A stretch of DNA of 64,000 nt from Neckera pumila (taxonomy: Eukaryota; Streptophyta; Bryopsida; Hypnales; Neckeraceae). Numbering within the stretch: the first letter of the stretch is position 1; each line of letters begins with the position of its first letter. The notes beneath the pieces were generated by a model. It was not told the DNA's origin, searched no databases, and was given only the letters and a program-made list of their open reading frames with translations. The position numbers and the translations under genes are program-made. The stretch lies in NCBI GenBank assembly GCA_963969595.1, contig OZ018418.1, positions 9,181,001-9,245,000 of the forward strand, written 5' to 3'. Shown here one piece after another: positions 33,837-64,000 of this stretch.

Positions 33837-36800
33837 AGCTCCAATTTTCTGGATAGTGATGATTTTCTGGACTCAAAACACTTCATTGATGAAGTGTGTA
33901 TTGAGCAGAAGAACTCAAGAGGAGCTTTTTCCTCTCGGAAAGGCAAAGAGCATAGGCCCATCATTATCAATGACGGTGAGGCTTGCAGTGAAGATGACAC
34001 TGCTATAGATTTGATCAAAAATCTTGTTCCGTCGGAGAACGCGGAGCCTGTTGTATTCAAGTTGACCCCAACAAATGCTGCTGGGTCTGCTGGCTTTATA
34101 GAGACCAGCGACATGCGAGGTTCCTTCCATACCTCGGCACAATGTGGTTAGAGTCCCGTATCTGGAAGATGGCAGACTTAGAAGAAGAGAAAGGCAGCTT
34201 CGACTCCAAAGATGGGTCCAAACCATCAATGGGTAGTTGATTTGCTTTGGAAAAATCATGAGGCAGATAAGAGGCTTCATCTAGAGCAGCAAAAGGAAAA
34301 TAAGAGAGCCCGTTAGGAATTAGCTATGGAGACTAAAGAGATGATGAAGGATCTTGTGAAAGAGTTTTTCTTCCAAGCGCGGCCTATGCTCACACACGAC
34401 CCGACAGCGCAGTCTCTTTAGTTGCAGATTGACAGCCAGCCTCATAGAACAGCCACCAATGTGCGGCATGTCCATGCCGGGTCAAAAAACCATTTTGGAT
34501 TGAAGACCACATCAAATGTTGCTATTGCATAGCCGTCAACATCATCTCTTGTTCATGACCGTATGTTGCGGGATGACCGAGACCTTGAGGATTTGGAGGT
34601 GGAACAGTTACAGGGCCCTGAGATTGATATTTCCTGAGGTTGTTCCCTGTGATTCTCTGCCTCTCAATCAACTCGTTTCAAGTTCAATTTCTATTTGCAT
34701 GCGTCTTTTGGTTATGTCTAATTTTCATGCAAACATTTTGGCTAGTGGTTATCCGCTGAACATATTGTAGATGTACCTCTCTGTGAGAGTTTATGTAATA
34801 AATGTATTTCTTATCATTTGTTTCATGTCCACTGCCAACCTTGCAGGCCAAGTTTCTGGCTCCACTTGTATGCCACTTTTACCCTTGGATGCTGTTGGCT
34901 TTGCTCAAGTCCCTGTTTGTGAGGCTGTCTGCAATGACTTATTGCATCCAAATGATGACTCTTTGATAGACATAGTTGTGACTAGTTTTGAGTCAACCGA
35001 CTACGAGAAGGATCTTGTCAATGCTGCGGAGACATCAATGGGCCTAGGTGGAGACAATATACCAGATCATGAATTCATGAAGATTCACATTCTCGCTTCC
35101 AAAACGCTAGCGACAACAGTCGTATCTTCTCCAAATCATGTGGCATGGGACTTAGTGCGTATTCTTTCTACTATGCTCTTTTCCTTTTGTCTAATGAACT
35201 TGTATATGCTCAAAATTTTTACACTGCCATGCTTTAGTACTTGAAATGTTATAGACAGTTTACTCAATTAATTGTCTACAAATTTTGCTATAAATCTGGA
35301 ACAAGGTAGCAGTGAGACAATAGGCCAAGCGGAGAGCATGGAACATCCATTCAAGTCTGGGGTTGCACAAAAGTGGCTTAATGTCATCCTAGATCTGAAT
35401 GGGGTGCTCTGTATATGTGAGGATAAGAAAAATCTTGCAAGAGAGAAACAATACATCCAATCCGATGAGGCTGACTTTCAATTAGAACACTTCTTCTTTG
35501 ATTTGAAAAGAGTCACTCTTCGTCCCCATTACAAGACCTTTCTTTGGGAGTTGTCCTCCTTTGCAAACGTCTCAGTGTGGACCTCCATGAAGAGGTCCAC
35601 GGCCATATGCATTTCCAATCACTTGTTTAGTGGCATAGAACCCCCAACTTATGTCTTGGGACAAGAACAGTGCAACATTCTCAAGTGCAAGGGGAGGTCT
35701 GCAAAGTTTGTAAATTACAAGGTGAAGAAAACAAAGAAAGACTTGTTCATAAAATTGTTGAGCAAGTTGTACAAATCGCCAAACTTTATGTTCTCAAGGG
35801 ACAATACTATTAATGTGGATGATAGTCCAGCAAAGCACTTTACGAATGATCTTGTGAATGTTGTTTTGCTTGCCTAGTGGTCATATGAAGGATATGGAGC
35901 AATAAACAAGCTCTTAGTTGAAAATCTTATTCCTTGGATACGGCACTTGCATGTAGCAAAGCCCTTAGCATTGGATGTATTTTGGTTTAATAATATTATG
36001 GGGCGCTTGAACCATTCAAAAAATTTGGATAAAACCAAGTTCATGCAGCTTAGTGAGGTGCTTGACATCTCTAATGCGCTTTATAGTGAGTGGAGTGAGA
36101 GTTACCTTAGACAAAAATGGCAAGACTTAGAAGGTTTGGACAGAGCATAGCACACGGAGATCATGATGGATGGAAAACATAGCACCCATACATGTCCAAA
36201 TGCTGAAGTAGGTCCTTAATAGTTGATGTAGAGGTTTTACATAGTCATTAGTTTTTGACTTAATCAATTATATGTCACACAGTCAACATTAAATATATGA
36301 CTATTCTTAGTGGTTATCAAATGATTCCCTTGTTGTTGTGTATATGTATGTTTCTGAGTTGCTAAGGTTGATTGGTCACAGGCACCAGTTTTTAAAATTG
36401 GCTATGGGAGCAAGTGTGCTAAAATCGCTGATTCCTTCTCAGATTGTGGACAATTTGTCGTATCAAAAAGCAACTTACGGCACATCTTGTATTCTGTTGC
36501 CACTGGGCAATCAATAATGGATTTTTCAATGCTGCTCGTTGATGACGGTGTAGTGGACAGTCCGCCAAATGGTAGAAAGCCCCTTAACCTTGTTAGCTCT
36601 CCTTCGCCACTCAAATGTGGTTTCCAATCACTTTCACCATGGGATTGTAGTGAGGGTAATGCCGTGGCGCAACAAAAAATGTACAATGACGAATTCAACT
36701 ATCTAATTGCCACTGAGGTAAGTGAGTATTATTCTAAATTCCTGATTTGAAGTATATTTTAATGCTCGTTTGTCCTATGAAGTGCAAATGTTTGATTTCT

Positions 36801-44835: not shown

Positions 44836-45968
44836 TTTCAAATTTTTTTTCTTTTCCTTCCAATATTTATGCTCCACACTCACCAATCCCCGCTTCCTGC
44901 TCGCTACTCCCTGCTTGCTCCCCAGCATTCCCCCATTTTTAGCCTAAAGATTATCCTACCCCCTAATTTGGCATTTGAAAACCATTAAAACATAGAGCTC
45001 ATTGAACACCCAAAAGGGGTAAAATCCAATTCTTGGATTTTGACTTTTCTAAGAAAAGTAACAAGCCTATGCTCTTTAGTAGGTATGAAGGGAGTAAGAA
45101 AAGACATAATTTTGACCTCATTCCAAATTCGTATGCTCACGAGATGTTGGTCAATTCCATTGTAATCTTTAATTTTGCCTGTACAAAGAGAATTCCGTTA
45201 GTTTGGGCACTTCTGGCCATCTAAATGTCTTCAAACTTGTAGGAGTGTCTTATTAACATAAAAGAAGCTAATCTAATTTTTAGTGAGCGTTTATCGCAAC
45301 CTAGGTAATTTCTAGAAATTTCCCGTTGTAGGTTAAGGCGGTTGACTATTTGGAAAGGCATCTTTTGAAGATCAGAAAATTCCAAATTCTTTTGTAGAAT
45401 CTCTCATTGAATTCTACAAAAGGTGTGCAAGCCCATCTCTTGACTTTATATGATGGTCAAGGGAGTTTCTTCAATTTGCAAGCTAACAATTGGGATTTCT
45501 ACGAAAAGATAAAATTGATTGGAAATTTGAAATCTATCCGTGAACTGGCTTCTAAGGTTCTTACCAAGTTCTCTAAGACCAATTTTAGCTAAGTTTTTTC
45601 ACATGCATGGTAGCCTTAGGTAAGTTGGGCCTTTTACTAAATATCTGTAATTTGTATAATTTACGGATTTCTATCCTATTTATACGTGGAAATTGATTTT
45701 ATATCAGAAAAATATTCTATTTAGCACCAAATGTCTATAATGGCACATGACATACCTATTTAGATTTTATACCCTTTTGGGGGATTTTTATATATAAAAC
45801 TATGCTCAAAATAATTAAAAAAAAAACTAAAAAACTGTGAGTCCCAAGTGACAAATTGGGAATTCACAATCGTGTACATTTGATAGTTAGATTTGTGGTT
45901 GAATCTGGGTTTCTGAATAGCAAGAACATTCTATCAAAAAATGAGGATGCTTACATGAACATCATATT
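44836..45968. other. intergenic, nothing recognised
   Basis: No gene recognised. The frames near 45.0 and 45.4 kb are short and lack recognisable features. Confidence 0.35.
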
Positions 45969-46433
45969 CATTAAAATGGGAGGGTGGAGCCCTCTCAAAA
46001 AAATATTGCACTTTAGAACACATATTGATTGAATAAAAATGGGCTCTTATTATCTCCATAGTTACTTATTTAATTACTTCAATCTATCAATTTCCATTAA
46101 AATGAGAGTCTTGCAAAGAAATAAAAGTCTCCAAACAAATATTGCATCATTCAATATAAAAAACTCCATGTATTCCGCAACCAAATAACAATGAAAATAA
46201 TATCAAATACATTAATTACTTGTACATATTCTGCACCAGAAATGTACAACTCTAATTATAAACACTTAAAAACTTAGACCTAAAACCTCACATCTATGAG
46301 AACATAAAATATTACCCTTCTCCCACAGTCATGTAAAAAGCATACTCTAGACATCTAAAAAATAAATAGAACTCTAAAACATATAACTATCAACGTAGTC
46401 AGAACTTTATAAAATACCGGTCCATTCTTGCGT
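45969..46433. other. 3' flank of DUF7869 copy 2
   Basis: Contains CATTAAAATGGGAG at 45969 and TTTCCATTAAAATGAGAG at 46091, the same pair and spacing as in the 3' flank of copy 1 (9603 and 9726). The two flanks differ in length from the stop codon (about 466 and 802 bp). This supports an element boundary near or beyond these words. Confidence 0.5.
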
Positions 46434-49277
46434 TCAAGACGAAGGAATTGAAGCCAAACTCTCTTTGATGACATCAATTTGAGCAGCCGGAATCTTGATC
46501 ATGTATTCCCTAGTATCTTTCTGGATCCTAGATTTCCACGCTGTTATAAGAGCGTCTGTGTGCTGCCAAAGTGGTGGTTTGTTTTCATCAACCTTCCAAC
46601 GTAGACCTCTTTCGCTGTCCCATCCAATATAGGAATTCTGAACATCCTCATCTCTACTGGTTGGACAGAAATACTAAATGCGAACACAATCCGGTTCTTC
46701 AGGATTACAATTTGGATCAGATAATGCCCTTGCAATTTGGACTGGATGACTGTCACCGTCTGCTGGATTAATTGCAACGAAGTAGCCTTCAAAGACATCT
46801 TGACCCACCCTAAAAGATGGTTGGGGGCGACCCCGTAAAGGTCCAACATAGGCGTCATCCTGCCCGAACTCTTCACGGTCTTCGCCATCTTCGTTCAGTT
46901 GATCTTCTTGAGTTGCTTCAACTCGAGTTGTCGGCCAGAATCCGTCCTTCAAAACAGTAGATGAAGATATTGGTTCTTGCAAAGCTGCCTTCACATCACG
47001 CCAATAGTGCACCACATGCTCGTAACGCCTCCGACATTCCCCAGTGGCATCTGCATTGCACAAATTCTCCCAATACTTTATAAATCCAGATACACCTTTC
47101 ACAATGTCTTCCACACCTCTCATTGCCTTCTGTGTGACTGGCAAGGATTCTCCACGTGGCTACATGCTTCGTCCTTCTGCATCTTCCTTCCACAACTTAA
47201 TGCCCCTACCATCTTCTCCTAACCAGTCCACATCTGTACACAATAATTTGTACTTCATGACTGGACTTCCGGTTGAATCTAGATAGAACTTCACTTGTTG
47301 TGGTTTTGTGTGTCCAACGAGGATGTCATCACCATCCACCAATGAATCTGCAATGAAATCTTTAAAATCAGGCACCTCTTCCACAAGGTGAGGGACAGTG
47401 GGAATGGACTCCACATCCATGAACGACTTCTTAAGCATAGGAACGGTAGGGAAGTTCTCTTTTTTCAATTGCATGCTCCATCTTCCGAAGAGTGCATCAA
47501 TGTCGTCGTGCGTGTAACCCACAATCATAAAGTTCACATACACTTCACGGAAGATCTTTCTTGCAACAAGTAGAGACCAAAAACAGAAAACATATCTATT
47601 CTTATTGTCCCCAATGGCATTGTCCATCTACACATTGAGAATGGGTGGCAATGGTGTCGCTGGAATTAAGTTCATCGGCGGTGGAGGAAGAGACGCTTCG
47701 CGCATCTCTGGGCCCTTCAGAACCACCTTGAACAAATTCGTTGACCTTGATCCAACAAACAACTGCCGAGAAGAAGCCTTTGGTGGAAACTCAAGATCTC
47801 GCAATAACTTCGCCATAGAACCAATGGTATAGTTTGAATCGTGCGGAAAGAGATCCAAACCATAATGCGCATAACGCACATCTCCATGACCGTGTGCAAT
47901 CATGCCAGTGACAGACACGGGAAATTTCACTAGGCCATCCGTGTCTTTGCTCTTATGAGAAAAGACTGGACAAGCAGTCTTGGAATGATCCATCTTGTCA
48001 TGCATGATTGTAAGACATTCGTGGGGAAAAGTGTGCGACCGGTACCGGTTCGCATAGTACAACTCTTGGTGAGCTCGAGCAACAGCAAGATGTTTGTCCA
48101 ACTTCCGCGACCACATGAGAGCCGTGTTTGACCCAGCAAGAGCACCCTTACTGAGCTCTTGTAATTTGTCACAAGTAGCACACCGAGCAAAATTGTCTCC
48201 AGGCTTTTTCACCTCGAACTCCGAGAACTTGGAAGATCTGATCTTGCTTAAATTTGAAATTGAAATTTCAGGTAATCCAAAGGCAGCATTGACATCATTG
48301 ATTTCTTTCATTTTTCCCTTCCATTGAAACTTAGCGGGAAGACACATGGAGACGACCTTCTCTCCTGACTTCATAGTCCGAGTACAATGCGGCATGTGAT
48401 TGGCCTCTTTGTCAAGGATGCACTTCAAGGTAGCAATAGCTTGCTGAGTGTGCTTCCTTGGCTTCAAAAATCTCGTGTTGCCGTGGTCCGTTGCTTCTCG
48501 ACGGCTCATCATAATCTTCTGATAGCGGAAGAACGTGGACTCAGGGACCCCTGAAATATGCATCCATGTACGCATGCACACAGGGATCTTTTCAACTGCC
48601 ACCATCTGTCTTCCACGAGAGTCGGGAAGAACTTGTCTATGGACATCAAGCTTCATGAAGGACCTATGCTTGAAGGTCGAGTTATGGTACATGCGCTCAC
48701 GGAAAGCTTGAATCTTCTCCCTTGGAAATGGCTGAACACAATTCTGAACGCAGCAAACTTTGCTAGAGACTGCGTTGATTGACTCCTGGGTGAGCAGATA
48801 TTTGGATTTGAGAGAAGTCACACGAGAGGGATTCCTAAGGATACTTGTATATGGCCTAGCAGATGTCAAAGAAGGTGGATTCAAAAGACTTGCTTGGAGG
48901 CAATTCAATTTATTCCGCGCTTCATGATCATGAAGGCTTGCCCCATGGTATTGGACAAGCTTAATAGGTCAAGCGATCAATGAGTAAATTTGCTCAGGGG
49001 AGATGTCGACTTCCAAATGAGTCCTTGAAATAAATACTGCAACATGAGTGTCTCTGAGAGGACCATTGGCACTGAGAACCAAGTCTGAATTGACACTATG
49101 ACAAGTGCCTTCACCAACAAGTACTCCATCCGCATTGTACAAGGTAACGCATTTCGTATTCCAAAGACTACGTGGAAGACCTTCGCACTCAGGAACGTCT
49201 GCATTCACTTCTTCATGAATCTCAATCTCCTCGTCTGACTCGAACATACCATCAAACAAGTTTGATGAAGAAGCCAT
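46434..49277 (-). pseudogene. DUF7869-like putative DDE transposase, copy 2: one frame, four stops
   Basis: An ATG at 49277 (MASSSNLFDGMFESDEEIE) opens a frame that stays in register to TGA at 46434, about 947 codons, with four premature stops: TGA at 48969-48971, TAG at 47628-47630, TAG at 47160-47162 and TAG at 46674-46676. There are no frameshifts. The N-terminal part is acidic, then resembles the DUF8039 domain of plant transposon proteins (GVLVGEGTCHSVNSDLVL, HVAVFISRTHLEVDI). Cys-rich zinc-ribbon-like parts follow (CCVQNCVQPF; CATCDKLQELSKG; ECLTIMHDKMDHSKTACP). Then come MIAHGHGDVRYAHY and the catalytic-type blocks MDNAIGDNKNRYVF and YTHDDIDALFGRWSMQL (GHTHDDID in copy 1). The C-terminus is KIPAAQIDV. 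Copy 1 supports Gln at two of the stops. Function as a transposase is inferred from the family's distribution and acidic residues. Confidence 0.75.
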
Positions 49278-49425
49278 GTCTCCTACACAGCAGAAGGTGC
49301 AAATACGGAATAAGAACATTTGAATAAAACTTTTTTACCCAGTACAGTACTAACGCAAAACAAGTCAGCACCACCCACGCTGACATGCTATATGAATTTG
49401 TTTCAGCCTAAGGCATCAAGATAGA

Positions 49426-49830
49426 ACTTCAACGCAACTAGCGCTGAAGTGTAGCTCACATTCACTCAAAGCAAATGAGACAGCAACGCAGATCAGCACG
49501 ACTAGCGCTCAAGTGTAAGGCATCCCAATCCAATAGCAATAGCAATTTAATTTCATTATAGTCAAATCCGATATTCATGCAGTTCAGCGCGACTAGCGCT
49601 GAACTGCACTTCACATCCGCTAAGGTCAAATGTGCTAGGACCACAGTTTAGCACGACTCCTTATGAAGAGCAATACACGTTCAATATCGTCAAATATGAC
49701 AGCATTACACTTCAGCGTGGGCCGCGCTGAACTGAAGTTCCCCTAGTACAACATCTCTGCACTTCAACATGACCCGCGCTAAAATGCAATCTACATGCAC
49801 TTTAATGTAAGTCTAAACTGAACGACCAAC
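49426..49830. repeat. cluster of TTCAGCGC-type hairpins, degenerate members
   Basis: At least five hairpins within 400 bp. The best is 49579-49607, with perfect 12-bp arms GCAGTTCAGCGC and loop GACTA. Others are at 49426-49450, 49493-49514, 49708-49733 and 49760-49788, with decayed traces near 49645 and 49802. All share the scheme (A)CTTCAGCGC, 3-7 nt, GCGCTGAAG(T). The cluster lies 150-550 bp upstream of the copy 2 start codon. Confidence 0.8.
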
Positions 49831-49978
49831 GGAATTGCACTTCAGCGCGGCTCGCGCTGAAGTGCACTCCTACTGTAGTGCATGTACTTACACTTCAGCG
49901 CGACTGACGCTGAAGTGTAAGATACATACACTGCAGTAGGAGTGCTCTTCAGCGCAAGCTGCGCTGAAGTGTAATTCC
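49831..49978. repeat. 148-bp nested palindrome containing three hairpins
   Basis: The segment 49831-49900 is an inverted repeat of 49908-49978, differing by about six substitutions (mostly transitions) and one indel. Each arm contains its own hairpin: 49836-49866 (perfect 14-bp arms, loop GCT) and about 49943-49971. The centre is a third hairpin, 49888-49920 (13-bp arms, 7-nt loop). Folded, it gives a cloverleaf-like cruciform. It could be a MITE-like element or a foldback transcript source. Confidence 0.8.
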
Positions 49979-51205
49979 CTGGCTTCTACAAACGAGATCA
50001 TTAAATATTTTTATTTCATTTCATCCGGACTTGAGTAAGTAGTTCCATGATTTCCGGAATCATATTATTGATGTCTCAAACCCTGTCAATATACTATTCT
50101 TAGTAGTCCAAAATTCACGGCGGTTCAATCGGAGGCTATCAAGGACTGGGCAACCACAGGCCCGTCATGTCGTATCAACGCGAAGATGGACAGAAAGGTG
50201 AGCGACAAGAGGAATGGCAGCATGAAATACATAGACAACAAGTAAATAACGAAGCATAGCAATTCAGAAGCAATTGACGTGTATGCCTACAATCTGGAAA
50301 ATGAAAATTGCTTGACAATACAAAGAAGGCGTAAGCTTACTCGCAACCATTTGCTACACAGTGCTTCCTCCAATAGTGCGACGAGCAATAACAACGACAA
50401 TAGAATCATAGCACAATCACAGATAGAAACTCCGGGAACTCGCAACAGTACTCAACATAACAAATCTAATTCTCAAACAATGACAGCATCGCATACAGAG
50501 GTCGATACAGTGGAAGAGAAAGGTGGGAGAGAATGTTGTGAACTGTGTTGACAACTCGCACCTTACTCAAAGGCGGGAACAAAAGAGCGCCAACCGACTA
50601 CGAGGTTTTGAACGTCTACATCCTATTGTCAAATGCCTCAGGGATTGTGATGGGCTTCACAGCTGTACAGCAAAAAGCGTCATTCAACGCTGCAATAAAG
50701 GAGTGCCCTTGCGGAAATTATTGAGTTAGCAGTATTTCGAGGATTCCCCTCATAAAGTCTGTTGACTTCTATACCTTATCATGTCAGGTCTCCATTAGCA
50801 ACAAAGTATCATTGCAAGACAGTCTTTTGAACTTGCATTTCGCGCACTTTTATAAGTATGATCAGTGGTTATTTTTGAATAGTCTAGGATCAGTTCTGTA
50901 CTAAAAGCAAGTTGCCACTTTTGCATTGACGGTCACGGAATATTTTAGTAGTATAGAGTAGGGATCTATCAATATTTGGAGAAAATTGCAGCTTTATTGA
51001 AATAGCTTTCCGATGTTGCCGCTGTGGAAATTTCCTTTTCCATTCAAAGTGAATATATTTGTAAGTTTAGTTTTTTTTTTAATAATAATTACATAATGTA
51101 CGTTACAAAATAGCATTCCGTAATTAATGAATGGAATGTTCCCAGAATTTCAATTTTGGGGAGGAAATTTTGCGTTTGCGGTTCAGAGATTTTAGGATAA
51201 AACAT
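49979..51205. other. intergenic, nothing recognised
   Basis: No gene recognised; the small frames at 50.28-50.73 kb have no domain features or splice context. Confidence 0.35.
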
Positions 51206-51258
51206 TATAGGGTTTAGGGTTTAGGGTTCAGAGCGGTTTAGGGTTTAGGATTTAGGAT
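51206..51258. repeat. interstitial TTTAGGG telomere-type repeats
   Basis: GGGTTTAGGGTTTAGGG, a short interruption (TTCAGAGCGG), then TTTAGGGTTTAGGATTTAGG. TTTAGGG is the standard land-plant telomere repeat; such internal patches arise from repair or old rearrangement. It supports a plant source and does not mark a chromosome end here. Confidence 0.75.
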
Positions 51259-51899
51259 TTACAATTCAAAATTCATGAACCATGATTTCCTATTTGTTCA
51301 AATGAATGAACCTATTCGGTCAACAAGCCTGTTTTATGATATTCGATAAGTAAATAGCATCTACTTATTTCATAATTGGGAGTTTGAGATGTTGTACATG
51401 CATTTTGAATTTGTATATGATAATTCTCATTGGGAAACTTTTCAACTTTTTTCTATTTCAATGTGAAATTGGGAAGCAGTTCAGGATATTATTTTAAGAA
51501 AAATTCTTTCATATAATGAAGATTTGTTGTCTACATTCTACTCATACCATAGTTTTTTTAGCCAATAAAGTTCAAAATTGATTGTACATCATAGATTCAT
51601 ATTTCGAATTTACTAAGAACCTTTGAACAAATGATTTTTCAAGTAATGAAAAAAAATGTTTTAAGTATGTGTTTTGTATGTGTATTCTCATTTTATTTAA
51701 TTTCAATCAATGGATCATGTAAGTAGATAATGCATATGAAAATTTCTTATGTTATATATTCTCAAAATTTTAAAATAAAAATAAAGTGCACTATTTAAAC
51801 TTTATACCAAAAAATCTATGCCCATTACCTATTTTCTATAGGAATGAAAAATACAAAAAAATACTAATAATTATTATTACTATTATTATAATACATGAA

Positions 51900-54760
51900 A
51901 CACCCTAATAATCCAAAATCGTATAGCTCATGTGTGAGTGGCTTCCCAAAAGAATATAGAAGTTCCAAATATTGTCTACTTTACGAATTCATCAAAAATG
52001 TGAAATGATAATAACTTTTTTATGAACCCGTATGTGTTTCAAAAACAATCAAAATAAATGTGATCATGTACAGTAATGACCTCATGTACAGTAATGACCT
52101 CGTGTACCTAAAATCAAAGGCTGTGGATGTGAAAACTCTTACAACCAAAATGTAGAAGTTGTAACGAATCTAAACATTACAAATCCATGAAAACATTCTA
52201 TTAGAAGTTGTCTTTTTCATTATTCATTTGCCATATTTTAGTGAACCAAAATCCATGAATCATCAAAGGAGTGTACGTGCATGTTCCCCCAGAAATGAAG
52301 AAGTTGGAATTTATCCAAAGCCTAGTTTGAAATCCATGGGCACATTGAATTCATCTCCAATTTTTTTTTATTTGCCACGTAACCCAAACGAAAGCATTAA
52401 ATTGCTGTATTTTAGTGAACCAAAAATCCATGAGTCCTGAAAGAAGTGCACGTGCATGTTCCCAAAAAAATGAAGAAGTTGGAATTCATCCAAACCCTAG
52501 TTTTAAATCCATGGGCGCATTGAATTCATCTCCCATTTTTATTTATTTGGCACATAACCCAAACAAAAGCATGAAATTGTTGTATTTTAGTGAACCAAAA
52601 ATCCATGAACTGTGAAAGAATTCCACGTGGATGTTCAAAAGAAAAATGAAGAAGTTGGAATTCATCCAAACCATGGTTTCAAATCCATGGGCGCATTGAA
52701 TTCATCTCCCATTTTTTTTTAATTGGCACGTAACCCAAACGAAAGCATTAAATTGTTGTATTTTAGTGAACCAAAAATCCATGAATCATAAATAAAGTCC
52801 ACGTGGATGTTTAAAAAGATAATGTAGAAGATGGAATTCATCCAAACCTTGGTTTCAATCTACCCATTTCTAATCAATCCTTACGTGAATTACAATATAT
52901 ACATAGAAATTTTACGTTGTGCTTAATCACCACAAATATCCAAAGTCATGGAATTATGATGTGGAAGTCTGAACTACAAAGTTATAGAAGTTGAAAACAT
53001 TTTGGAGATTATAATTCCATGATAGTATTCCATTAAATTTATTTACAAATTGTTGAATCCGAAGTTTGTGCTATTTTGAAATTATTTCAGGAAGTTCAAC
53101 AAAATGGAAAATAATACTAATTAATGGCCTAATAGGAATTCAATTTGTTGTGCATTATATCTCTTTTGAACATTATAAACTCGGTGGAGCATATCATTTT
53201 GTAAATTGACATATAAATGACGTGCCAATTATCATGAACCCAAACATGATTAAATAAAAAATAAATGGAAATCAATTGGTAGAAGCCTTAATCCAAAAAA
53301 AGGTAGAAGTTTTATAATAATCTCACGGTACCTAATTCATGACAATATGATATTTGTGCCCATTTCTAATGAACCCTTTTAGTAAAAATAAATGGGAATA
53401 AGTTAAGTCCTGCATTTTAATGACCACAAAATGGATAAGTCATTAAATATGTATATGCAAGGCCTAACAAGAGAAAATAGGACTTCTGAGTATTTTAAAC
53501 TATTTTATTGCATGCACATGTTTAATTTCTATGCATTTGTAAGGAACTGTGACATGGAAAAAAAAGGGGGGGAATCAAGTGGGCCCTGCATGTTAATGAC
53601 CACAATTAACAATAGTCACATAAATCGTACGTGCAACGCATAAGCAAATAAATGTAGGAGTTGCAAATTTTATACAGATTCAGAATCCATGAAAATATTT
53701 GATGTGTGACCATTTGTAATCAACCACTACTTACATTAAATATATATACGCATTTTCCATGTCATGCACTTTATTGACCATTGACATTCGAAATTATGGA
53801 TTTCTTACATGAAAGTCTTAACAAAAAATTTGTAGAAGTTGTAAGTATTCAAAAGGTTCAAAATCTATTAGGTTATTCAATTATTGTTCATTTTTAATAA
53901 AACCCAACTTTTAGTTGATATGGGAATTACTTGGGAATTGTAGTTCAATGTTTACAATTTCCATGATTCTTAGAAGTCGCTTGTGGAAGGCCTACTACCA
54001 AAGTTGTAGAAGTTGTACATATTGTCAAAACTTGAAATCCATTACAATATTCAATTGGTGGTCATTTTTTATGAAACCATACATGAGTAAAAAAGTTATA
54101 AAGAAATCGCATCGAGAACTTTTATGACCCGGAACACCAATACTTTTGGAATTCATGTACAAGTTTAACTCTAGAAATTCTAAGAATTCTACATATTTTC
54201 AACATTTACAATTTTAGACAATATTGAATTTGACTTTGCCAACAACAAAACTCATAAAACAAATATAATGGAATGAGTCTATAATAAAAGATACATTCAA
54301 TATAATTTGAATTGAACTGTAAGATTCCAATTTATGAACCAAAAGTTTGTGCTTTTTCTTTGAAGTTGTACGCTATTTAAGAAATTGGAAATACATTGGG
54401 CCCTTTAGTTCAGTATTCACGAATATACAAAATCATGGTAGTCATGCATGAAAGACCAAACGAAAAAAATGTAGAATTTCTAAATGTGGTCACTATATTA
54501 TATGCATGACAATTTCAGATCTGTGCTCATTTGTAATGAAGTTCAATATAAACAAGAACTTCATCTCATAAATCAAGCTCTGTATTTTATTCACCACTAA
54601 TACTCGAAGTTCTGGTATGTAGACTAATGTGAAATGCTTAACCAAATATATTGTAGAAGTTGTAAACATTAAAAAACTTTTACATCCATGAGAATATATT
54701 CTTGAATTCCATGATTTTTTGAAGTGCGTTTCTATAAAGCACATGAATTATTTTATTCAT
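51900..54760. repeat. degenerate ~175-bp satellite-like region
   Basis: Two interleaved blocks recur. One is TAGAAGTTGTA(A), then (A)AATCCATGA(A)AATATTC, at about 52147, 52980, 53299, 53652, 53832, 54003, 54465 and 54651. Several spacings are near 171-186 bp or multiples of it. The other is the clean sub-array at 52236-52870. The period resembles that of plant centromeric satellites, but copy number here is low and divergence high. Confidence 0.55.
52236..52870 (+). repeat. 175-bp tandem repeat, about 3.6 units
   Basis: TTTTAGTGAACCAAA begins units at 52236, 52410, 52585 and 52761, spaced 174, 175 and 176 bp. Each unit continues with AATCCATGA, CACGTG(C/G)ATGTTC, GAAGTTGGAATTCATCC and ATTGAATTCATCTCC. 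The last unit loses identity near 52860. Small frames in each unit arise from the repeat and are not genes. Confidence 0.85.
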
Positions 54761-55847
54761 GTGCTGGATTTAAAGTAGGTAGTGTTCACATAAAATCCTC
54801 ATGATTACAACAAAATAATGACTTTCATTCAATTCAATTCATGATTTGAATTAGGCAATAAGGTGTTAGTAATTCTAAAGTTGATAGAAGTAATAAAAGT
54901 GAAATACTTCATTCATAATTTCTTTTCCTTTACAAGGTTTACAAATATTTGATTTCTTCTAGAAGAAAATTTGAATAAATACAAATACCAACATTAATGC
55001 CTTTCAAAATTAGAAAAATAATTCTCAATCCACGTAGTAAAGACTTTGAAAAATATTCTTATTTTTTGAAGACCTACTTTTCATCTTACTACTCGAAACC
55101 AACACATTTGGTTTTTATTTGAAAATAAATATTTTCAGAATAGGTTGAACAGGCTTTTTATCTTGTGTGGCATATTTGACCACAACTACCACTGAATGAT
55201 AAACAATTTTTCTCAATACGCCAGAGACCCCAAAATCTTCAATCTTCACAATTTTATGATAGACGGCAAAACATGAAAAAAATATTAATTGAGAAAGTGT
55301 AATTACAAATCAATAGAAATAGTTATGTGATGTCACCTATTATCAGGAGGGATGATTTACATGACAGCACCTACGTGTTTCACTTGAAGAAGATGGATTA
55401 TTTTTGAACTCATGAATCATCCATTCTGAGATTCTATGAATTGTGCATCTCAAAAAATATGGAAGTCCTTAACGGTCGAAAAGTTTTAATAGTACAGTGA
55501 ACTTCTGCTTTTGATACAGAAATTTCCAAAAAGATAGTTGTGCTCATTTAACACACAGATGGATGAAAATATGCAATCGACAATAATTTGCAGGAACAAG
55601 AGTACCAATATCAAGTAAAGGATTACTTTAAACAGCCAAAAACACTGCTACCACATGGCATTAACTATGGAAGAAGGTTACTTGAAATATGAACTAGATA
55701 TGAAGGCTTTCCGGTTTAGAAGTTTGGTTTCGGAAGTGAAATGCATGGTTTGCGACAGGAAGGATATCGACTGCAAGGTTTGGATACGGGATCAAATATG
55801 AGACTGATTATTAAATTAGGGTATGTACCACGTATCTGGTCATGAAA
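54761..55847. other. AT-rich intergenic
   Basis: No gene or clear repeat recognised. Confidence 0.35.
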
Positions 55848-56000
55848 GTACGGGTATGTAAGCACGGGTACTGTACCTATGTGTTGGACAGGTATGTAAA
55901 CACGAGTATTGTACCTATGTATTGGACGGGTATGTAAGCACGAGTACTATACCTATGTACTGGACGAGTATGTAAGCACAGGTATAGGAGGATTGGTTAT
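55848..56000. repeat. 38-bp tandem repeat, four units
   Basis: GTATGTAA(G/A)CACG(G/A)GTA begins units at 55854, 55892, 55930 and 55968, exactly 38 bp apart. Each contains GTACTGTACCTATGT or a close variant. The minus strand reads as a Tyr/Pro-rich frame that is a repeat artefact. Confidence 0.85.
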
Positions 56001-56099
56001 TGAATGGGTATGGAAGGGCGAGGTATTGAATGGGCATGGGAGGGCAGGGTATTGAACGGGTATAGCACGGATACAAGCACGGGGTAAGGGGTATCAACG

Positions 56100-56420
56100 T
56101 ACCGCATTAGGGTTTAGGGTCCTCCCTGTAGGGTTTGGCACCCTTAGTTTTTCTTGCTTTCTCGACTTCTTGTTTCGGCGCAATTGCTGTCTGTCGCAAT
56201 CTCCTTTTTCTCACTTTCGGAGAATTCAGGGTTCCTTCTCCTGCTGTCCGCTGAGTTCTACTTGCTGTTTGCTTGAGTTCTACTTGCTTGTCCGCTGAGT
56301 TTGACTGCGCTAGGTTATCGCTGCTGTGCGAGGTGAGATTGAGGTGCTCTTCTTAATTTCGGGTCGACTGCACTAGGTTATTGCTGCTGTGCGAGGTGGT
56401 ATCTATTGCGGGAGGTGATC
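56100..56420 (+). promoter_or_regulatory. telo-box-bearing, transcript-leader-like region
   Basis: TAGGGTTTAGGG and TAGGGTTT lie at 56107-56136, the reverse of the AAACCCTA telo-box found in promoters of plant translation-related genes. A T/C-rich leader-like stretch follows, then a duplicated block GACTGC(G/A)CTAGGTTAT(C/T)G at about 56303 and 56367. It looks like a plant promoter plus 5' leader, but I cannot attach a confident gene. A Lys-rich stretch (VGKKLTKKTLKVVKKG) at about 56460-56507 with a following GT could be an exon, which is very uncertain. Confidence 0.3.
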
Positions 56421-58140
56421 ATTGAGTACACTTTTGCGGTTTGTTGGAACGGACGGGAGAGTCGGCAAAAAGCTCACCAAGAAGACTCTCAAGGTCGTCA
56501 AGAAAGGTGTGTAGTCCTTCTCGCCCCCCTGCTCATTGTCCGCTTCATCCAACAGCTTTTTGTATTCCTTACAATTGTGTGTTTCAGAATTCACGCTCCA
56601 TAGCTTATCTTCTCTCTGTGAGTCGGCATGGATATTTTTGTTTCCTAGGCATGAATCCTCTCCAACTTCCCGACTCTGTCCTTCGGAATTGCCATGTAAC
56701 CCATTGGTTGCTCTGCAAGTTGAAGACTCGTTTTGTTTAAGCCTTCCTAGCGATTCTCCAAGAGAGTGCTTCTGGTATTGTGTTAATTTTCTTTGTTTGA
56801 CTTCATGCAGCTGCTTCATCAAAGTAGTTGAAACGGGGAGTTAAGGAAGTTTTGAAGGCAACAAGTTGGGGGAGTTCAGTCAACAGAGGGTTATAGTGCA
56901 GGTTCAATCTACGTACTGTATTGATGCCATTTCAGGAGGGAAACCAGAAGTCATTCTCATGTATAAACGACTCTCTCTGTTTTTGCAAAGCATACAACCC
57001 TAGCTTGTCAATCCAACATAGCAAACAAAGGACAACCGAAGAAAAAACGTTCTTCCCAGTAGGAAACCCTGCCGATGGTAATACCCTTTTAGTGGATTTC
57101 TAAGCTTGCAATGCACGGACTTTGTTCTATTGAGATTAATATTCTCAAGAGGTGAATTATACTGAGAGTACAGTACAGGCTGCGAGTTTCTACTATCAAG
57201 CGAGTGAAGAAGGTTCGAGTAGGACAAAGGTGTCGGGGTTTTGGTTCAGGGTCGCGATGTGGCTCTCCGTGTGTGGATTCAGTTTTGGATGTTGGTGCAT
57301 CTCAATTTTGTACAGTAACTATTGAATTTTTTTGGTGGTGGATGAGAGAGAAGTGCCGTGTAGTTGCAAATACTTTAGTAGGTCCCTGTACTGGTCCTAT
57401 TTAGCATTCTGGTCTGCAGGTGCATTCTAGGGTTTCCGGGTGTGGTATTTGCTGTTCACTTCTGTTTGATTCTTGTTGTGGAACGGTTTGGATTGCTTGT
57501 CCTTTTTCTTTGGTGTGATCCAAATTCTTTCCTTCTTTCCTTGTTCTTTCCTTGTCACTGTTGTTTTTTATTGTGTTAATATGGATTTGCTGTTCAAAGT
57601 TTTTGTTCCACAGTTGTGAAAGAATTTAGGGTGCAATTTTTGTTTTCGTTAGGAGATCCAATTTGGACATTTCTTTATGTTGTTGTTGTTGTTCTTACTG
57701 TCACTGTTTGTAATTTAGGATTGTTATTGCTCTTCTGATTTCAATGCAAGTAATGTTCGTTATGCCTTTAGTGTTTTAGGATACTTGCGGCTGTTCTTCA
57801 TAAATTGTTTGTGTCTTCCTTTATTTCAGTTTGATCTAAATATGTTTCCTCAGATTAGTTGCTGTTTCTGACCCAATGGAATATTAGTCGTTTGATGTGC
57901 AACACGCAATTTGTTTTCAAGGTTGCACATTCAAACCGTAAACCAGGCAAGTAGGGGTCCAGAAAGGAATTGGTGTGCGATTCAACTGCAAATTCCCCCA
58001 ACAACATACTGGTACGCAATCGAAGCCTCAGTAGTTCTCCGTGTATTTCGTTATTTTGAAACCTAATTATGAATGCCCAAATCTGTCAAGGAACTCTAGC
58101 AATGTAGTGGAAGCCGTGCTTAATTGGCTAATGTACACCT
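56421..58140. other. T-rich, intron/UTR-like sequence, no recognised gene
   Basis: Long T- and TTG-rich runs resemble plant introns or leaders. Open frames are short and overlap on both strands. No product is recognised. Confidence 0.35.
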
Positions 58141-58146
58141 GTCCAG

Positions 58147-58203
58147 CAGTGTCATCTATGTCATTTCAGCGCGACTCGCGCTGAAATGACATGAGTGACA
58201 CTG
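58147..58203. repeat. 57-nt TTCAGCGCG hairpin
   Basis: Perfect 16-bp arms (ATGTCATTTCAGCGCG) flank the loop ACT. Beyond a 3x3 internal mismatch an 8-bp outer stem follows (CAGTGTCA/TGACACTG). It is the best member of the family that also clusters at 49.43-49.98 kb. It lies about 500 bp upstream of the first recognisable codon of gene B. Confidence 0.85.
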
Positions 58204-58324
58204 CCGAACCTCATGAACAAGTCCCCTAAACTAAACTATCCAAACCCACGTATAACCTCTGAAATAAGAACTAGAAATCAAATCCATGCCACGCGCTTAA
58301 ACATATAAGACCATCTATCTGTCG

Positions 58325-58580
58325 CACACTTGCCACATCAGTGCGACCCGCGTTGAATCGACAAAAGTGCTAATGCCCATTACGGATATCATTCAACTAA
58401 AGGCAGAGCAAGACTACCAGATATAAAGTCAGAACACCTCGACGGTTCAACGCGACTTGCGCTGAAATAGCAATATAGTAAATTGAATGTCTATGCAGAA
58501 TTCAAGTTTATGTCGCTTCATTAAGTATAGAACTAGGAAATGACTAATTAGCTCGAGTCGCGCTAAAATAACATGCTCGT
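58325..58580. repeat. three decayed hairpins of the TTCAGCGC family
   Basis: Traces at about 58337 (CAGTGCGACCCGCGTTGAA), 58445 (GTTCAACGCGACTTGCGC followed by TGAA) and 58551 (AGCTCGAGTCGCGCTAAAA). Arms are imperfect, but the CGCGA(C/G)T(C/T)GCGC core is kept. They sit in the 5' flank of gene B. Confidence 0.65.
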
Positions 58581-59559
58581 CTTATTCTGCTGCACAAATC
58601 CTAAAGCATATTGTACCCCTGAAGAGAATACAAAGTCATGCTCGATCAGCTCCTCAAAAAAAGCATCAATAGACTAAATGAAGACAATGTACTATTTGCA
58701 GAATGGAGAACCAAATGGAAGCCCTCAAAATGTACTTCAAGAAATGCGAAATGCAAATCACAGAGGAGGACGCCGGAGGGGACGACTCTCTTATTGAAGG
58801 GGTCTATTGGGAATTCAAGGATCCAGATAGAGTGGAGGCTTGGGGTTTTATCATGCTACCATTCACCAATCAATTTTGCTTTTCGTACAGATTCAAGAGC
58901 GCCCAAATCTTTTTACAGCTTTCGTTTGATGAGAGAGTGAAAGATGTGGAAGCAGATATCCATCCCATCATAAAAATCAAATGTGTTACAACAATTCCTG
59001 GAGTCCCAAAGAATGACCAATACCACTTCACAATCTGCCTGGACTCGGTGTTCATTCCGTTTCACATGACCCCTTTGCTAAGCAGCCTTGAAACAAAGCC
59101 CTTCAGCATGGAAATCAAGGAGCTTGAGAGAAAATTAGACAATAACAAGTGGTTGAATGCAAACGAGATGCCGCTGGCCTAGAGGCGCCTCTGCAGTAAA
59201 ATACGAGTATTGTTCGGAGACTTCAATATTCTAAAGGGGAAGATTGAACATCAGAGCATGCAGAATCGACCCCGCTCCGTGTCAATGGACCTTCAGAAGC
59301 AGGGCATTTGCCAGAGCTCACGGCAGACCGTGGCCAAGGAGACGGGAGGAATCCGCGGACAAAAAACTCGGGAGCAACCCCCCCAGAAAACACCTCCAAA
59401 GAAGGGGAAGAAAGTTGCTGCCACCACGTCCAGAGCTGTAGCACCGCCAAGGGCGTCGGAGCAATCTGAAATCGCAGAGGGCAGTTACGTGGACGAGATG
59501 AAGAACGTCCCACACTCGCAGGCGACTGAGAAGAAGCTCGACTATGAGCATATTAACAA

Positions 59560-60154
59560 AGTTTACCAGAAGTTCTGGGTGACATGTGCTGATGCCTACA
59601 TCCTCGCAGTTGATGAGAAGAAGGAGATAGACATCTCGCAGCTCATTATGCCCCCCGCGACATACAATATTTGTTCCAGGCAGGAAGACATCGTCGACGG
59701 CATGGTGAAGTACCTCTTGAATATCCCAGACAAGAGCACTAAACAAACACTGTGCGTCATGCCAGTAGGGTACACGACTAAACCTAAGAAGTGGGAGGAC
59801 ATTGTGGGAGGGAAGTTCTACATCATCAACGGTCAGCACAGTGTCTTGGCCAGCAATTTCATGTTCGACGACGCCAACAACGTGAATAAGAAAGAGAGGG
59901 AGCATTTTTGAAAATGGAATTGCTTCCTCATGTGGTCAAACGATGCGGAGAAGCTGCGAAGCATTTCGGCATATTATAACCGCACAAACCACTTTGTAGC
60001 AGTTCAGCCTTCCTGGGCAACAAATATACTGGGAGCGCGATCGGTATGGGAGGACATGGGCAGGCCAAGGAATCCAACCCAAGCGCACTCAGTGGGAACC
60101 GTGTCAATAACAAGACGGACGGTAGAGAATCAGCGCAACAAAGACAAGTTTCAG
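59560..60154 (+). other. ParB/DGQHR-like region of gene B
   Basis: KFYIINGQHSVLASNF supplies the hydrophobic strand and the N-G-Q-H motif close to the DGQHR signature; Arg is replaced by Ser. The later segment LRSISAYYNRTN provides the downstream Asn region. A TGA at 59909 separates the two, where CGA (Arg) is a likely ancestor. The region corresponds in order, though weakly in sequence, to KFFVFNGSHRHFAW and MHDIN of gene A. Confidence 0.5.
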
Positions 60155-60157
60155 GTA

Positions 60158-60190
60158 TGCAATTCAGCGCAAGTCGAGCTGAACTGTTGG
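60158..60190. repeat. TTCAGCGC-family hairpin in gene B intron 1
   Basis: ATTCAGCGCAAGTCGAGCTGAACTG: imperfect arms TTCAGC(G)C and G(A)GCTGAA. It occupies the start of the 114-nt intron, close to the donor site. Confidence 0.6.
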
Positions 60191-61396
60191 ACTGGTCCTT
60201 TAATCCATGCCATGATGTTCTCTGTATTTGATTATATTTCTGATTCAACTGTCATATGCTTGTCACAGGAATTTGAAAAGGCTATCTACGTTCGCTTCTC
60301 CATGATTGATGTGAATAAGAATCTGAAGATTGCCCAGACGAGTAAGAAGGAGGAGAAGTTGAAGCTCACGAACGAACTGAAGCTCATCAGTGCCCCCGAC
60401 AATGTGTACAAGCTATGGAGCGAGGTGATCTCTTCCGCCGCGCATGGCGAGCTCGTGAACCCCAATACGAAGAATAAGTTTAACCACAGAAAGGGCTGGA
60501 ACCCCGATAATTGCAATCTCACCTGCGAGTTCTTCAAGTATTTGGGCAATTTGAGCTACGATGAACTAGCCAAACTTGCCAAGCACCTGCTTAACCAAAG
60601 GGGTCTCAAGCGCCCATTCTCTTACCTGAAAGTTACGATTAGAGCAATATCATCCGTGCTCAAAAGTTGCTACACAACAAAAGAATGGGTAGAGAGGCGG
60701 AAGCGGAAGCACTTGGTGAAAAAAGAGCTGCACCATATAGACCCAGAGCTGGGGTTGTTGAACTCGGGGAACGAGGTAATTTCCAAAAATTGGAAAGCGT
60801 TCAAGAATGAGAAGTTATTATCTAGAGCCACCATAGACGTCCTCCTTGACAGACCTGGAGAGGCGTACTTTGGGAAGGCAAAGCAGGTCAAGTCAAAAAA
60901 CAAGACCTGTGCTGAGCTTTCAGAAGAGGCATATCAGTTCTTCAAGGCCTTCCTTGAGCATAAATCGAAATTTGTGAAGGCCACCGCAACAGGTCATTAT
61001 CGGCCCTACGACTTGGTTCGGAACTATCATAACGACTGGCTAGCAAATTCCTGGACCGAGGAGACCACAAAAAGGCTATCGCTCGGGGTGATTGACTTCA
61101 GGGTTTTGCCCGGGATTGAGAAGAAAGACAGCTCCACTATCGAGAGCCCCTATTTTGTGGAGGTCATGACATTGCTGCGCAAAAAGAAGAATCCAACACT
61201 TGAAAAAGTTCCTTCATGACTTTTTATTTGTGGAGACGAGAAGGAGCTAATGCAGGTTCTGAAACTCGTTGAGTCCAATGAGGTTCTATCCTCCTACGCC
61301 ATTGACTTCTCTACCTACTTTGCGGGGAAGAACAATCGCCTTGGAGATCAAGCAGCATTGAAGACTCCGAAGAAGGTGTCGTTGATGTTTCTCTAG

Positions 61397-61990
61397 AGCA
61401 CTCAGAACAGTGTGAAGGTAGAAATTCCTCCCGAATTCCATTGCCCAGAAACGGCAAGGTACATGAAGGCCCGCGCGTACAATGAGCTTGAGTACCGGAT
61501 ATACAACACTGAATTGCGGATGGAATCCTACTTGTGGCTTGTCAAGAACTTCTGCAATCCCGGGAAGTGTGTCTTCTCCGGATTCGCTGGAGGAAAACTG
61601 ACGTGCGCTGCCATGGTGAGTACTGTTGATGCAGATTAGCTCGAGTCGCGCTGATATGCTCTGCTCCAGCCAGATCAGTTTAATGATAACAAATTCACCC
61701 ATCTCTTGCTGTGGAAATAGTTGTAGGTGATTGTAGTGGTCGGTTTAGCTCGACCCACGCTGAAGTGTACTAGTACTAATCAGTAATGAAAGTCCCTCTT
61801 GTTGTTTTAGCATGGGTCGCTCTGAAGTGCGGAATAGCATTAGGTACTTTGAAGCAATCCTCTTGTTGTATTAGTGCGGGTCGCGCTGATCTGCCATTAC
61901 TTGTTTCTGATGTCTCTTATCTATCTCCTGCAGATGAGTTGCGTGGATGTCTATGCAAGCGGTTTGTCGGACCATTCCTTCTGGTGGGAG
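61397..61990 (+). other. methyltransferase-like motif I region of gene B
   Basis: The exon ending at 61615 reads RMESYLWLVKNF, then CNPGKCVFSGFAGGKLTCAA; the next exon opens MSCVDVYASGLSDHSFWW. The pattern LV..(F/L)..PG..V...FAGG...AA matches the strand-loop of motif I in N4/N6 DNA methyltransferases and lines up with LVEGLTEPGDVVVDCTAATG in gene A. No catalytic (D/N/S)PP(Y/F/W) is visible upstream; EIPPEF and ESPYF are the nearest strings, so catalysis is doubtful. Confidence 0.45.
61636..61895. repeat. four TTCAGCGC-family hairpin relics in one intron of gene B
   Basis: Relics lie at about 61638 (AGCTCGAGTCGCGCTGAT), 61746 (AGCTCGACCCACGCTGAAG), 61809 (AGCATGGGTCGCTCTGAAG) and 61871 (AGTGCGGGTCGCGCTGATC). 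Each keeps a decayed CGCG(A/G)(G/C)TCGCGCTGA core. A density of four in a 318-nt intron suggests local accumulation. Another relic at 63008-63032 lies in the next intron. Confidence 0.65.
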
Positions 61991-62159
61991 GAAATCTGCA
62001 CAAAGGCCATGACACTCGACAAGGCGGATTTCCTTGACGATGCGTACTCCGTGGATGGAGCTGCAGGTCCAAGATCAACCCCCTCCTTGTCGAAGAGAAA
62101 ACTGAGGTCCAGTCAGGATTCTCCAGCCAGCCACCGCTCAAGACAGCCACCTCCCATCG

Positions 62160-62640
62160 TTGACGATGAAGATGATCTGACCGAAGAGGAGGAGGACGAG
62201 GAGGAGGAGGAGGATGTTGACCCCATTGAGCTCGGTGGGTTGGATGAGTTCCCAACGCCGACCAGTCGTCCATCAGGAGATGTTCCGGGGTCCTCCGCAA
62301 GCTCTATGCTACCGCCGTTGTCCTAGATGCCAAGGACTCCTACTCCGGCTGCCCGACCTCAAAAAAAGAGGAAACAGGACACGATCGCAAGTGTGGTCAA
62401 ACAGTTGGCAGATATTCAAAAGCAAAATGCAGAGTCGTTGGCGAATATGGCAAGGCAGAACGAGTTGGCGCAGAAGCAACAAGAGCTTGCGTTGATGCAG
62501 CTGAGGATAGACATGGAACGGGAAAGGCTGCAGAACCAGGAAATGGTGAGGCTAAACCAAGAGTGGATGAAGGAGGAGTCCAAGCATAGCAGAGAAATGA
62601 TGCAGCTCATGATGAACAGAGTGGGAACTAAACCAATGGC
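62160..62640 (+). other. acidic tract and Gln/Met-rich coiled coil of gene B
   Basis: An Asp/Glu run (about 62163-62220) is followed, after an in-frame TAG at 62324, by a basic KKRKQD patch that could be a nuclear localisation signal. A long amphipathic helix follows (LADIQKQNAESLANMARQ, then QQELALMQLRIDMERERL and MKEESKHSREMMQLMM). Heptad spacing suggests dimerisation. Gene C has a shorter, similar helix at the same place ahead of its phosphatase domain. Confidence 0.55.
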
Positions 62641-63538
62641 AGCTCTGCCACTTGCATCTCACTCTCCGCCATTGCTACTGCAAGGCCAGCCTTCTGGTTT
62701 GAACATCAGCAATGTGTCGTCAGAGGCAATGAGAGGGCCGCCTCCTCTTCCCTCCGTGGAACCAGTCCATGACCCTCTTCCTCCGACAGACGACATCCCC
62801 GCCCAACCTGCTTCAGCTGCAGTGCAACAAGAAGGACCTCTGCAGCACAAAGTTGTTGGCGTCGTAACAGCATTGACAGAGACAGTAGAGATTATGGTTG
62901 GGCACAACCTGTCTCTGAATGCCTCTGAGGTGGAACCTGGAAGTGATGACCTGCCCACCGGAGATCCACCAGCAAGTTGTGCCCAATAATCATTCGATGT
63001 TGTTGTGTAGTTTTAGCTCAACTCGAGCTAAAGTGTTTGCTAGAGTTTTCCTGCCCATGTCATTGTATATAGAATAGTCTTAGTATTTGAACTTGGAAAA
63101 CGCAATTTTGTAATCTGGGAACTCAAATTTGTAATATCTGGATCTCTCACAGAGAATGTTTTGCTCAATCATGAATTGCAGGCTCTGTAAATCTCCAAAT
63201 GTTGCCCGAAGTATGTCAATTTCCTTCCGCTGAATCTGATCCGCTATTGACGACGAGCACTTCCGACAAGGATGACACTCGGCCAGGTTCGGTCCAATCC
63301 ATAGAGGTAGGTGAGGATGTGTCAGTCCCGAATGAGGCACCATCAACTCATGAGGATGATGATCAACTTTCAGGACGTACTCGAGCAAAGGTACAATACA
63401 CTCTTATGTTGTGAGATTTCTGCTGAATTTGCACGTTGCACGTTTGACATTGATTTCATATGATTTTGCATGATTGGTGTCCGCATTCAACCAGTTTCAC
63501 GATTGTAACTAGCAACACATTCATCCGTTTCATAGCAG

Positions 63539-64000
63539 GAATCAAATCCTCCAGTAGATCTTGAGGGATCGTCCGAAGGCGTGCATCGGACATTGAGGTC
63601 CAGGGTGGCAAAGAAGTGGATCAATGTTGTCCTGGACCTCAATGGCATTCTTTGTGTCTGCAAGGACTGGAAGTCCAAGGGGTCCTCAAGAGAATTCAAC
63701 CGGCAGTCGAAGCCACACTCTGCCACGACTGGCGCGATCGTGGGGCCTAAGGCTGTGTATATCCGGCCCAATTGCTCCACGTTTCTGATAGAGTTAAAAA
63801 AATAGCCATTGTTTCAGTGTGGAGCTCCATGAAGAAGTCCTCTACGGAGGACATTTGCGCTTACCTGTTTCGGGAAGGTGAATTGCCTTTCTTGGTCCTT
63901 GGACAAGACTCCTGCAGAACCATTAAGTGCACGGATAGAGCTAGCAAGTTAAGCTCATATAAAGAGCCCGGAACTAATAAAGAGTTGTTTCTTCAGGACT
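63539..64000 (+). other. FCP1/NIF-type domain of gene B, truncated by the window edge
   Basis: After an ATAGCAG acceptor, the exon encodes WINVVLDLNGILCVCKDW (HAD motif I as DLNG, as in gene C), YIRPNCSTFLIEL, then in another frame VSVWSSMKKSSTEDICAYLF (motif II) and FLVLGQDSCRTIKC. The change of frame is in an A-run near 63793-63799 and looks like a one-base indel. Motifs III and IV lie beyond the window end. Confidence 0.65.

Follow-up and report, generated by a model that had tools for sequence, protein, structure and literature searches.

A 64,000-nucleotide stretch of the moss Neckera pumila (assembly GCA_963969595.1, contig OZ018418.1, positions 9181001–9245000; hereafter the window) holds a copy of a giant Sola-like transposon with two genes, the transposase-like gene A and a second gene, gene B. 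We consider it reasonably probable that gene B is an accessory gene of this element and encodes a sequence-specific self-recognition protein, through which the element controls its own transcription. A 21-bp palindrome that occurs, at both genes, in non-coding DNA only and is conserved in distant relatives, and the ParB and methyltransferase-like folds predicted for a relative of the gene B protein, are the central evidence for this proposal.

Palindromes in the non-coding DNA of both genes

The palindrome is imperfect (best form TTCAGCGCGACTCGCGCTGAA) and occurs at 18 sites of the window at ≤5 mismatches, against 0 in each of five random Markov sequences. Eight sites lie 5′ of gene A (49428–49968), about 150–690 bp upstream of its likely start codon. 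The other ten belong to gene B: four in its 5′ flank (58165–58567; sites at 58165, 58337, 58446, and 58547), one in intron 1 (60163), four in intron 2 (61635, 61744, 61806, and 61870), and one 3′ of exon 3, before the FCP1-like part (63012–63032). Two relatives of gene B, L001 (CADCWO010000269.1) and L002 (CADCWO010000243.1), whose best segment is 36% identical, present near-perfect TTCAGCTCGASTCGAGCTGAA sites in their introns and flanks. All sites at gene B are non-coding (10/10 in the window, 8/8 in L001, and 8/8 in L002), with coding sequence making up 65–80% of each stretch. The probability of this placement by length alone is about 7e-16, with exon bounds taken from open reading frames (ORFs) and tblastn and with sites of one copy perhaps not independent of each other.

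The fragments of homologous proteins are consistent with this placement. Among 106 fragments (without P0022, P0077, and P0114), 60 have a recognizable exon end followed by a tail of at least 8 residues, and palindrome-encoded peptides appear in 30 of these tails (17/28 for exon 2, 13/32 for exon 1), with 34 matches in 1995 tail residues versus 0 in 22,919 body residues. This agreement checks consistency and is no independent test, as the patterns were picked after the tails had been viewed and, for the end-of-ORF pattern, scoring was limited to tails; a narrower first pattern, before widening, had found such peptides in 9/55 fragments.

The palindrome recurs across the genome of this moss (339.5 Mb, 18 contigs), with 86 forward and 95 reverse matches at ≤3 mismatches, most sites being counted once on each strand; the reversed pattern gave 0 and 1. 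The layout of the loci was read from the first 100 matches listed. Among these, paired gene A and gene B clusters are seen at six loci (two on C1, one each on C5 and C7, and two on C11, one of them the window), a gene A cluster by itself at C6:873k, and single palindromes at five further places. A diverged gene B at C2:30.36 Mb (L040, C2:30358001–30368000; about 68% DNA identity) has two palindromes of this kind among the matches listed. L040 also resembles parts of the region between the two genes.

The palindromes might instead work at the RNA level, as hairpins in splicing or in small RNAs, and not as sites in duplex DNA: several are found inside introns and close to the ends of genes, and 8 to 10 of the 10 arm positions pair in L001 and L002. 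The center base, however, is C or G without fixed orientation to the gene (5 and 5 in the window; 4 and 4 in L001; 4 C, 3 G, and 1 A in L002), and the gene A cluster is upstream of the likely start codon. We regard the hairpin explanation as improbable.

Anatomy of gene B

Gene B lies on the forward strand. Exon 1 (58703–60154) encodes an N-terminal domain and a ParB-like domain (about 59630–60050) with NGQHS at 59828–59842 and YNRTNH at 59975–59992. Exon 2 (60269–61615), beyond the 114-nt intron 1 (60155–60268), encodes a helical region and a methyltransferase-like domain (about 61010–61960), which is interrupted by the 318-nt intron 2 (61616–61933). Exon 3 (61934–62989) completes that domain and continues through an acidic stretch and a coiled-coil-like stretch (about 62380–62620, by eye) to a TAA codon. 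The FCP1/NIF-like exon (63536–64000), with VLDLNG at 63629–63646 and a frame change near 63750–63800, extends past the edge of the window.

A first-pass annotation of this DNA, made from the letters alone, had proposed both introns, and they do have GT..AG ends with a single frame kept through both joins, from 58703 to the TAA at 62987–62989. The motifs that it named are also present (NGQHS, the downstream Asn segment YNRTNH, PG..VFSGFAGG, and VLDLNG), the coiled coil being judged by eye. Its description of one spliced reading frame holds for the exon joins, but the frame is broken by five in-frame stops (codons at 59180 and 59909 in exon 1, 61217 and 61394 in exon 2, and 62324 in exon 3), and the FCP1-like part sits beyond the TAA, in one or more later exons, and switches frame. 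The window copy of gene B, an accessory gene carried by a giant transposon of mosses, is broken and is a pseudogene.

Nine pieces of the window were scanned against Pfam, NCBIfam, and PHROGs. The Pfam comparison, which the same annotation had suggested, returned a weak, sub-threshold NIF match (E 0.017) and otherwise unrelated weak matches, and the combined scans added a faint methyltransferase hint (NF010253, E 0.087); the remaining weak matches were taken for chance. The domain assignments given above for the exons are based on homologues and on the structure model of one of them.

Relatives of the gene B protein

A protein search with the window read-through, with X at the stops, recovered seven homologues at E 3e-274 to 4e-114, six from Physcomitrium patens and one from Ceratodon purpureus (M758_UG327900), and the observation thus exceeds chance. 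The locus tag of the Ceratodon relative is in U-chromosome style. Profile searches produced overlapping sets of 55 proteins and, with an exon-1 profile, 66, mostly exon fragments (P0001–P0116, including the first seven). In four of the seven (P0002, P0003, P0004, and P0007) a NIF/FCP1 domain is found above the Pfam cutoff, at E 2.9e-11 to 1.6e-14, within the same model. At the level of annotated gene models, the FCP1 fusion is therefore present in two species, Physcomitrium and Ceratodon, in agreement with the earlier assignment of this segment to the same protein.

Exons 1–3 are free of stops in L001 and L002, as is the FCP1 exon in L002, and so open copies of gene B exist. Both contigs are listed in a metagenome-assembled genome (MAG) of an "uncultured Synechococcales". 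Their moss-type genes are spliced, and for this reason we take them as probable eukaryotic contamination of a cyanobacterial MAG; protein P0068 of a "Leptolyngbya" MAG resembles this case. The named organisms among the matches were Physcomitrium, Ceratodon, and the two cyanobacterial MAGs only, and no bacterial relative was recognized among them by a search that detects only relatives sharing short exact words. In viral contigs, 0/209 pattern stretches was a relative and the exact palindrome had 0 matches. A sequence profile search of the PDB with alignment A2 gave no match.

Predicted folds and replaced active-site motifs

A structure model of one 1042-residue relative provides, by structure comparison, a ParB N-terminal fold and a beta-class DNA amino-methyltransferase fold, so both segments that the first-pass annotation had called from motifs correspond to predicted folds. 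A first structure built from seven sequences was too poor (predicted local distance difference test, pLDDT, 34). For the motifs we used alignment A7, whose 73 rows come from a subset of the 116 proteins; a 118-row alignment (A6) was dropped because it placed exon 1 against exon 2.

Beta-class DNA amino-methyltransferases typically have a DPPY-type catalytic motif and an FxGxG motif for S-adenosylmethionine (SAM). In A7 the position of DPPY (motif IV) reads D-(F/L)-R (D 51/52, R 51/52; PP in 0/52 rows) and that of FxGxG (motif I) reads FxGxK (G 47/48, K 46/47). These replacements are conserved, and hence are not decay. As read from this alignment, canonical methyl transfer by the gene B family is doubtful, and the earlier suggestion of a modification protein is weakened accordingly, since nearly all relatives have lost both motifs. 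A protein with N6-adenine or N4-cytosine methyltransferase activity, marking the element that encodes it, would agree with the predicted beta-class fold; residues of the known enzymes are gone at both motifs, though what replaces them is conserved. Such marking is proposed for algal ParB–methyltransferase transposon genes, similar in concept, in the accessible part of PMC12477816. Given motifs IV and I, we think it an unlikely account of the moss protein.

The place of the CTP (cytidine triphosphate) motif holds NGQH, a DGQHR-like motif (N 26/26, G 26/26, Q 25/26, H 27/27). With its NGQH and its YNR.NH segment, the ParB-like domain, on our reading, resembles DGQHR proteins more than it does partition ParB. 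FCP1/NIF phosphatases have DXDX(T/V) as their catalytic motif; the FCP1-like domain departs from it, with DLNG in the window, in L002, and in those annotated relatives whose models extend this far.

The transposon and its copies

Gene A (46674–49334, reverse strand) is a run of consecutive ORFs in one frame, split by stops. It matches PF25273 (DUF7869) at E 8e-30 on 47160–47627 and at E 1.4e-5, just under the cutoff, on 47628–48968; this is its sole Pfam match at E ≤ 1. The left terminal inverted repeat (TIR) is at 45958–45982 (forward strand, AACATCATATTCATTAAAATGGGAG). A copy on C6 and the window have sequence in common from 45955 onward, which fixes the left end of the element. The terminal 25-mer has 104 and 107 matches in the genome versus 0 in the control, and at ≤2 mismatches one is found at the gene A end of each of seven loci. 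Gene A was seen by sequence in the window, at C1:50.12 Mb, and on C6; at the other four loci its presence is suggested by the distance of the palindrome cluster to the element end.

The C1:50.12 Mb copy is collinear with the window over 47726–64000, at 93–97% in large blocks, apart from some 13 kb of inserted DNA between gene A and gene B and, near 56.4–56.9 kb, a short stretch without a match. It has 22 palindromes: gene A accounts for nine, and the remaining 13 are spread along gene B, with three past the FCP1 part. With its inserts it extends over 50118239–50157292 (39,054 bp), flanked by a TTCC duplication, and its right TIR, at C1:50157268, agrees at 20/25 positions. The stretch immediately 3′ of gene B in this copy (c3 29.3–31.5 kb) showed no TIR-like site; the right end lies farther out. 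A 176-bp tandem repeat between the two genes (window 52234–52858) is also present in the C1 copy.

Five elements of 269–455 bp on C1, C4, and C7 (L046–L050), of the size of miniature inverted-repeat transposable elements, have the same kind of ends, with exact 4-bp duplications in 4/5 (L048 has none); small non-autonomous relatives of the element thus exist. A 4-bp target duplication is a Sola trait. It is seen here at one copy of the element (TTCC), at a second, related element in the window (GTTC), and at these four small elements. The class assignment, a giant two-gene Sola-like TIR transposon of mosses, rests on the TIRs and the 4-bp duplication, with gene A matching DUF7869; complete examples number two, of 28 kb and of 39 kb with nested inserts. 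The earlier view of a mobile element is upheld by the TIR, the duplications, and the several copies. C11 (12.3 Mb, 3.6% of the genome) holds 19/31 exact TIR matches among those listed, and may be a sex chromosome or one otherwise rich in transposons.

A host gene family of the ordinary kind that happens to lie near transposons could also yield a long conserved protein with annotated models. The pairing of gene A-type and gene B-type palindrome clusters at six loci among the matches listed, the collinearity over 47.7–64 kb between the window and a copy elsewhere, on a different chromosome, and the TIR and duplications make this very unlikely.

A second element with different palindromes

The second element (9592–37781; 28,190 bp) has 28-nt TIRs that are 96% complementary and is flanked by GTTC on both sides. 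Its gene A′ (11135–12915, reverse strand) is 47–72% identical to gene A and is preceded at its 5′ side by five palindromes of different sequence, TTCATCTCSAWTCGAGATGAA (13284–13776; mismatches 0, 1, 3, 3, and 3). Alignment of the two motifs reveals that the outer TTCA..TGAA is retained and that the inner bases differ in both arms. This is the pattern that would be expected for family-specific sites, as judged from one element. An FCP1-like remnant (35056–36084, forward strand) is also present. It either results from a deletion, by which the gene B of this element may have been trimmed, or was inherited as a gene of its own.

Weighing the self-recognition reading

Several results count against a gene B protein that recognizes the palindromes. 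The model of the relative is modest (mean pLDDT 68.7, predicted TM-score 0.40), of its PDB matches just three attain E 0.001, and ParB proteins match at E 6e-3 at best. No ParB family is among the 25 Pfam families listed for 62 relatives at E ≤ 10, and N6_N4_Mtase appears in that scan as one match at E 0.029. A GERR-type CTP motif is typical of partition ParB; it is not present in the gene B family. The second element has no detectable ParB or methyltransferase part, with nothing better than E 0.93 apart from FCP1. As to its motif, the reversed form has two chance-level matches (5 mismatches) in the window, and the motif itself also catches two first-element sites at 5 mismatches.

A second element with palindromes but without detectable forms of those parts means that the sites might serve the transposase. 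The palindromes would then be bound by the gene A product or by a host factor, and gene B would have some other task; the palindrome clusters found 5′ of gene A and 5′ of gene A′ fit such an arrangement. The sites are, however, about 3.5 kb and more inward from the element end, the terminal repeats differ in sequence from the palindrome, and sites also occupy the introns and 3′ parts of gene B; relatives with about 36% identity carry them in the same introns. We therefore hold binding by the transposase or a host factor to be a minor, though real, possibility.

Our preferred reading, recognition of the element by its own gene B protein, can be stated as a mechanism. The ParB-type domain and the helices that follow it would bind the ~21-bp palindromes in the manner of bacterial ParB at parS, and load the protein onto the non-coding DNA of gene A and gene B. 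We infer this binding from the ParB fold, from the odd-length dyad without preferred center orientation, and from two precedents (DndB and VANC21). The methyltransferase-like domain, its canonical motifs lost, may be a DNA- or SAM-reading or dimerizing module, or may have changed chemistry, and the FCP1-like domain may act on, or dock to, the transcription machinery. The outcome would be control by the element of its own transcription, most likely an escape from host silencing (VANC-like) or else autoregulation (DndB-like). The palindrome arrays in non-coding DNA give indirect support to the silencing-evasion protein that the first-pass annotation had imagined. By analogy, the ParB-type domain may also have nuclease or NTPase activity, as such domains, DndB among them, can (PMC10853773 and PMC5512222, in the parts available).

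A more specific proposal is tentative, and we would sooner expect it to fail than to hold. A captured bacterial-type ParB clamp would load at parS-like palindromes in the introns and flanks of its element. Together with an FCP1-type domain and a methyltransferase fold of altered catalysis, it would hold the element open against host silencing; related elements with matched palindromes would then represent an evolving protein–site lock and key, independent of VANC.

Comparison with known systems

Partition ParB has palindromic sites near its own gene, as gene B has, the binding by gene B being conjectural. VANDAL elements are of the Mutator-like (MULE) type, with a MULE-type transposase partner; gene A, with DUF7869 as its only Pfam match, differs in this, and we know of no ParB or methyltransferase fold in VANC. 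In the literature listings that we searched, which cover subscription journals sparsely, we saw no mention of palindrome arrays in ParB–methyltransferase transposons. Searches for DUF7869, for an FCP1 homology domain in Physcomitrium transposons, and for ParB in Physcomitrella transposons or intron palindromes in moss transposons found nothing relevant, and one for ParB in EnSpm transposons found the Ectocarpus paper alone (PMC12477816).

ParB domains fused to a methylase, as here, are found in Bce_0392 (accessible part of PMC5512222) and in the phage protein A0A6J5MMM5 (named ParB/Sulfiredoxin). The latter is the best BFVD match of the modeled relative (E 3.5e-6, 666 alignment columns, presumably both parts), at about 10% identity and with poor whole-length superposition (root-mean-square deviation 26.6); it is shorter, with no FCP1 reported. 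DndB, as far as the available text of PMC4507180 describes it, binds palindromes and controls its own operon. It shares with gene B a DGQHR-like motif and palindromic sites beside its own gene, but it is bacterial, its site is TACGN10CGTA, and it is without a methyltransferase or FCP1 part.

The available portions of PMC5735166 and PMC10398659 describe VANDAL21 of Arabidopsis as a multi-gene transposon in which one gene product, VANC21, is a sequence-specific binder that occupies introns and intergenic and terminal non-coding parts. There, as at gene A and gene B, a short motif is dense in introns and in intergenic and upstream non-coding DNA, and targets vary between related elements. In VANDAL21 the density of the motif matters; the VANC motif YAGTATTAY, however, is no long palindrome. 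If the palindromes are gene B sites, they would constitute a second, unrelated way for a transposon to recognize itself and to resist or tune silencing, testable directly in Physcomitrium, where relatives are annotated.

Closest by description are the ParB–methyltransferase accessory genes already known from algae, that of Sola1-1_Ec32 of Ectocarpus and the further algal transposon genes cited alongside it in the accessible part of PMC12477816, which makes no mention of palindrome arrays. New here are the moss host, the FCP1 fusion, the replaced catalytic motifs, and the palindrome arrays, by which these proteins of eukaryotic transposons, published for algae, gain a candidate DNA target and a land-plant home.

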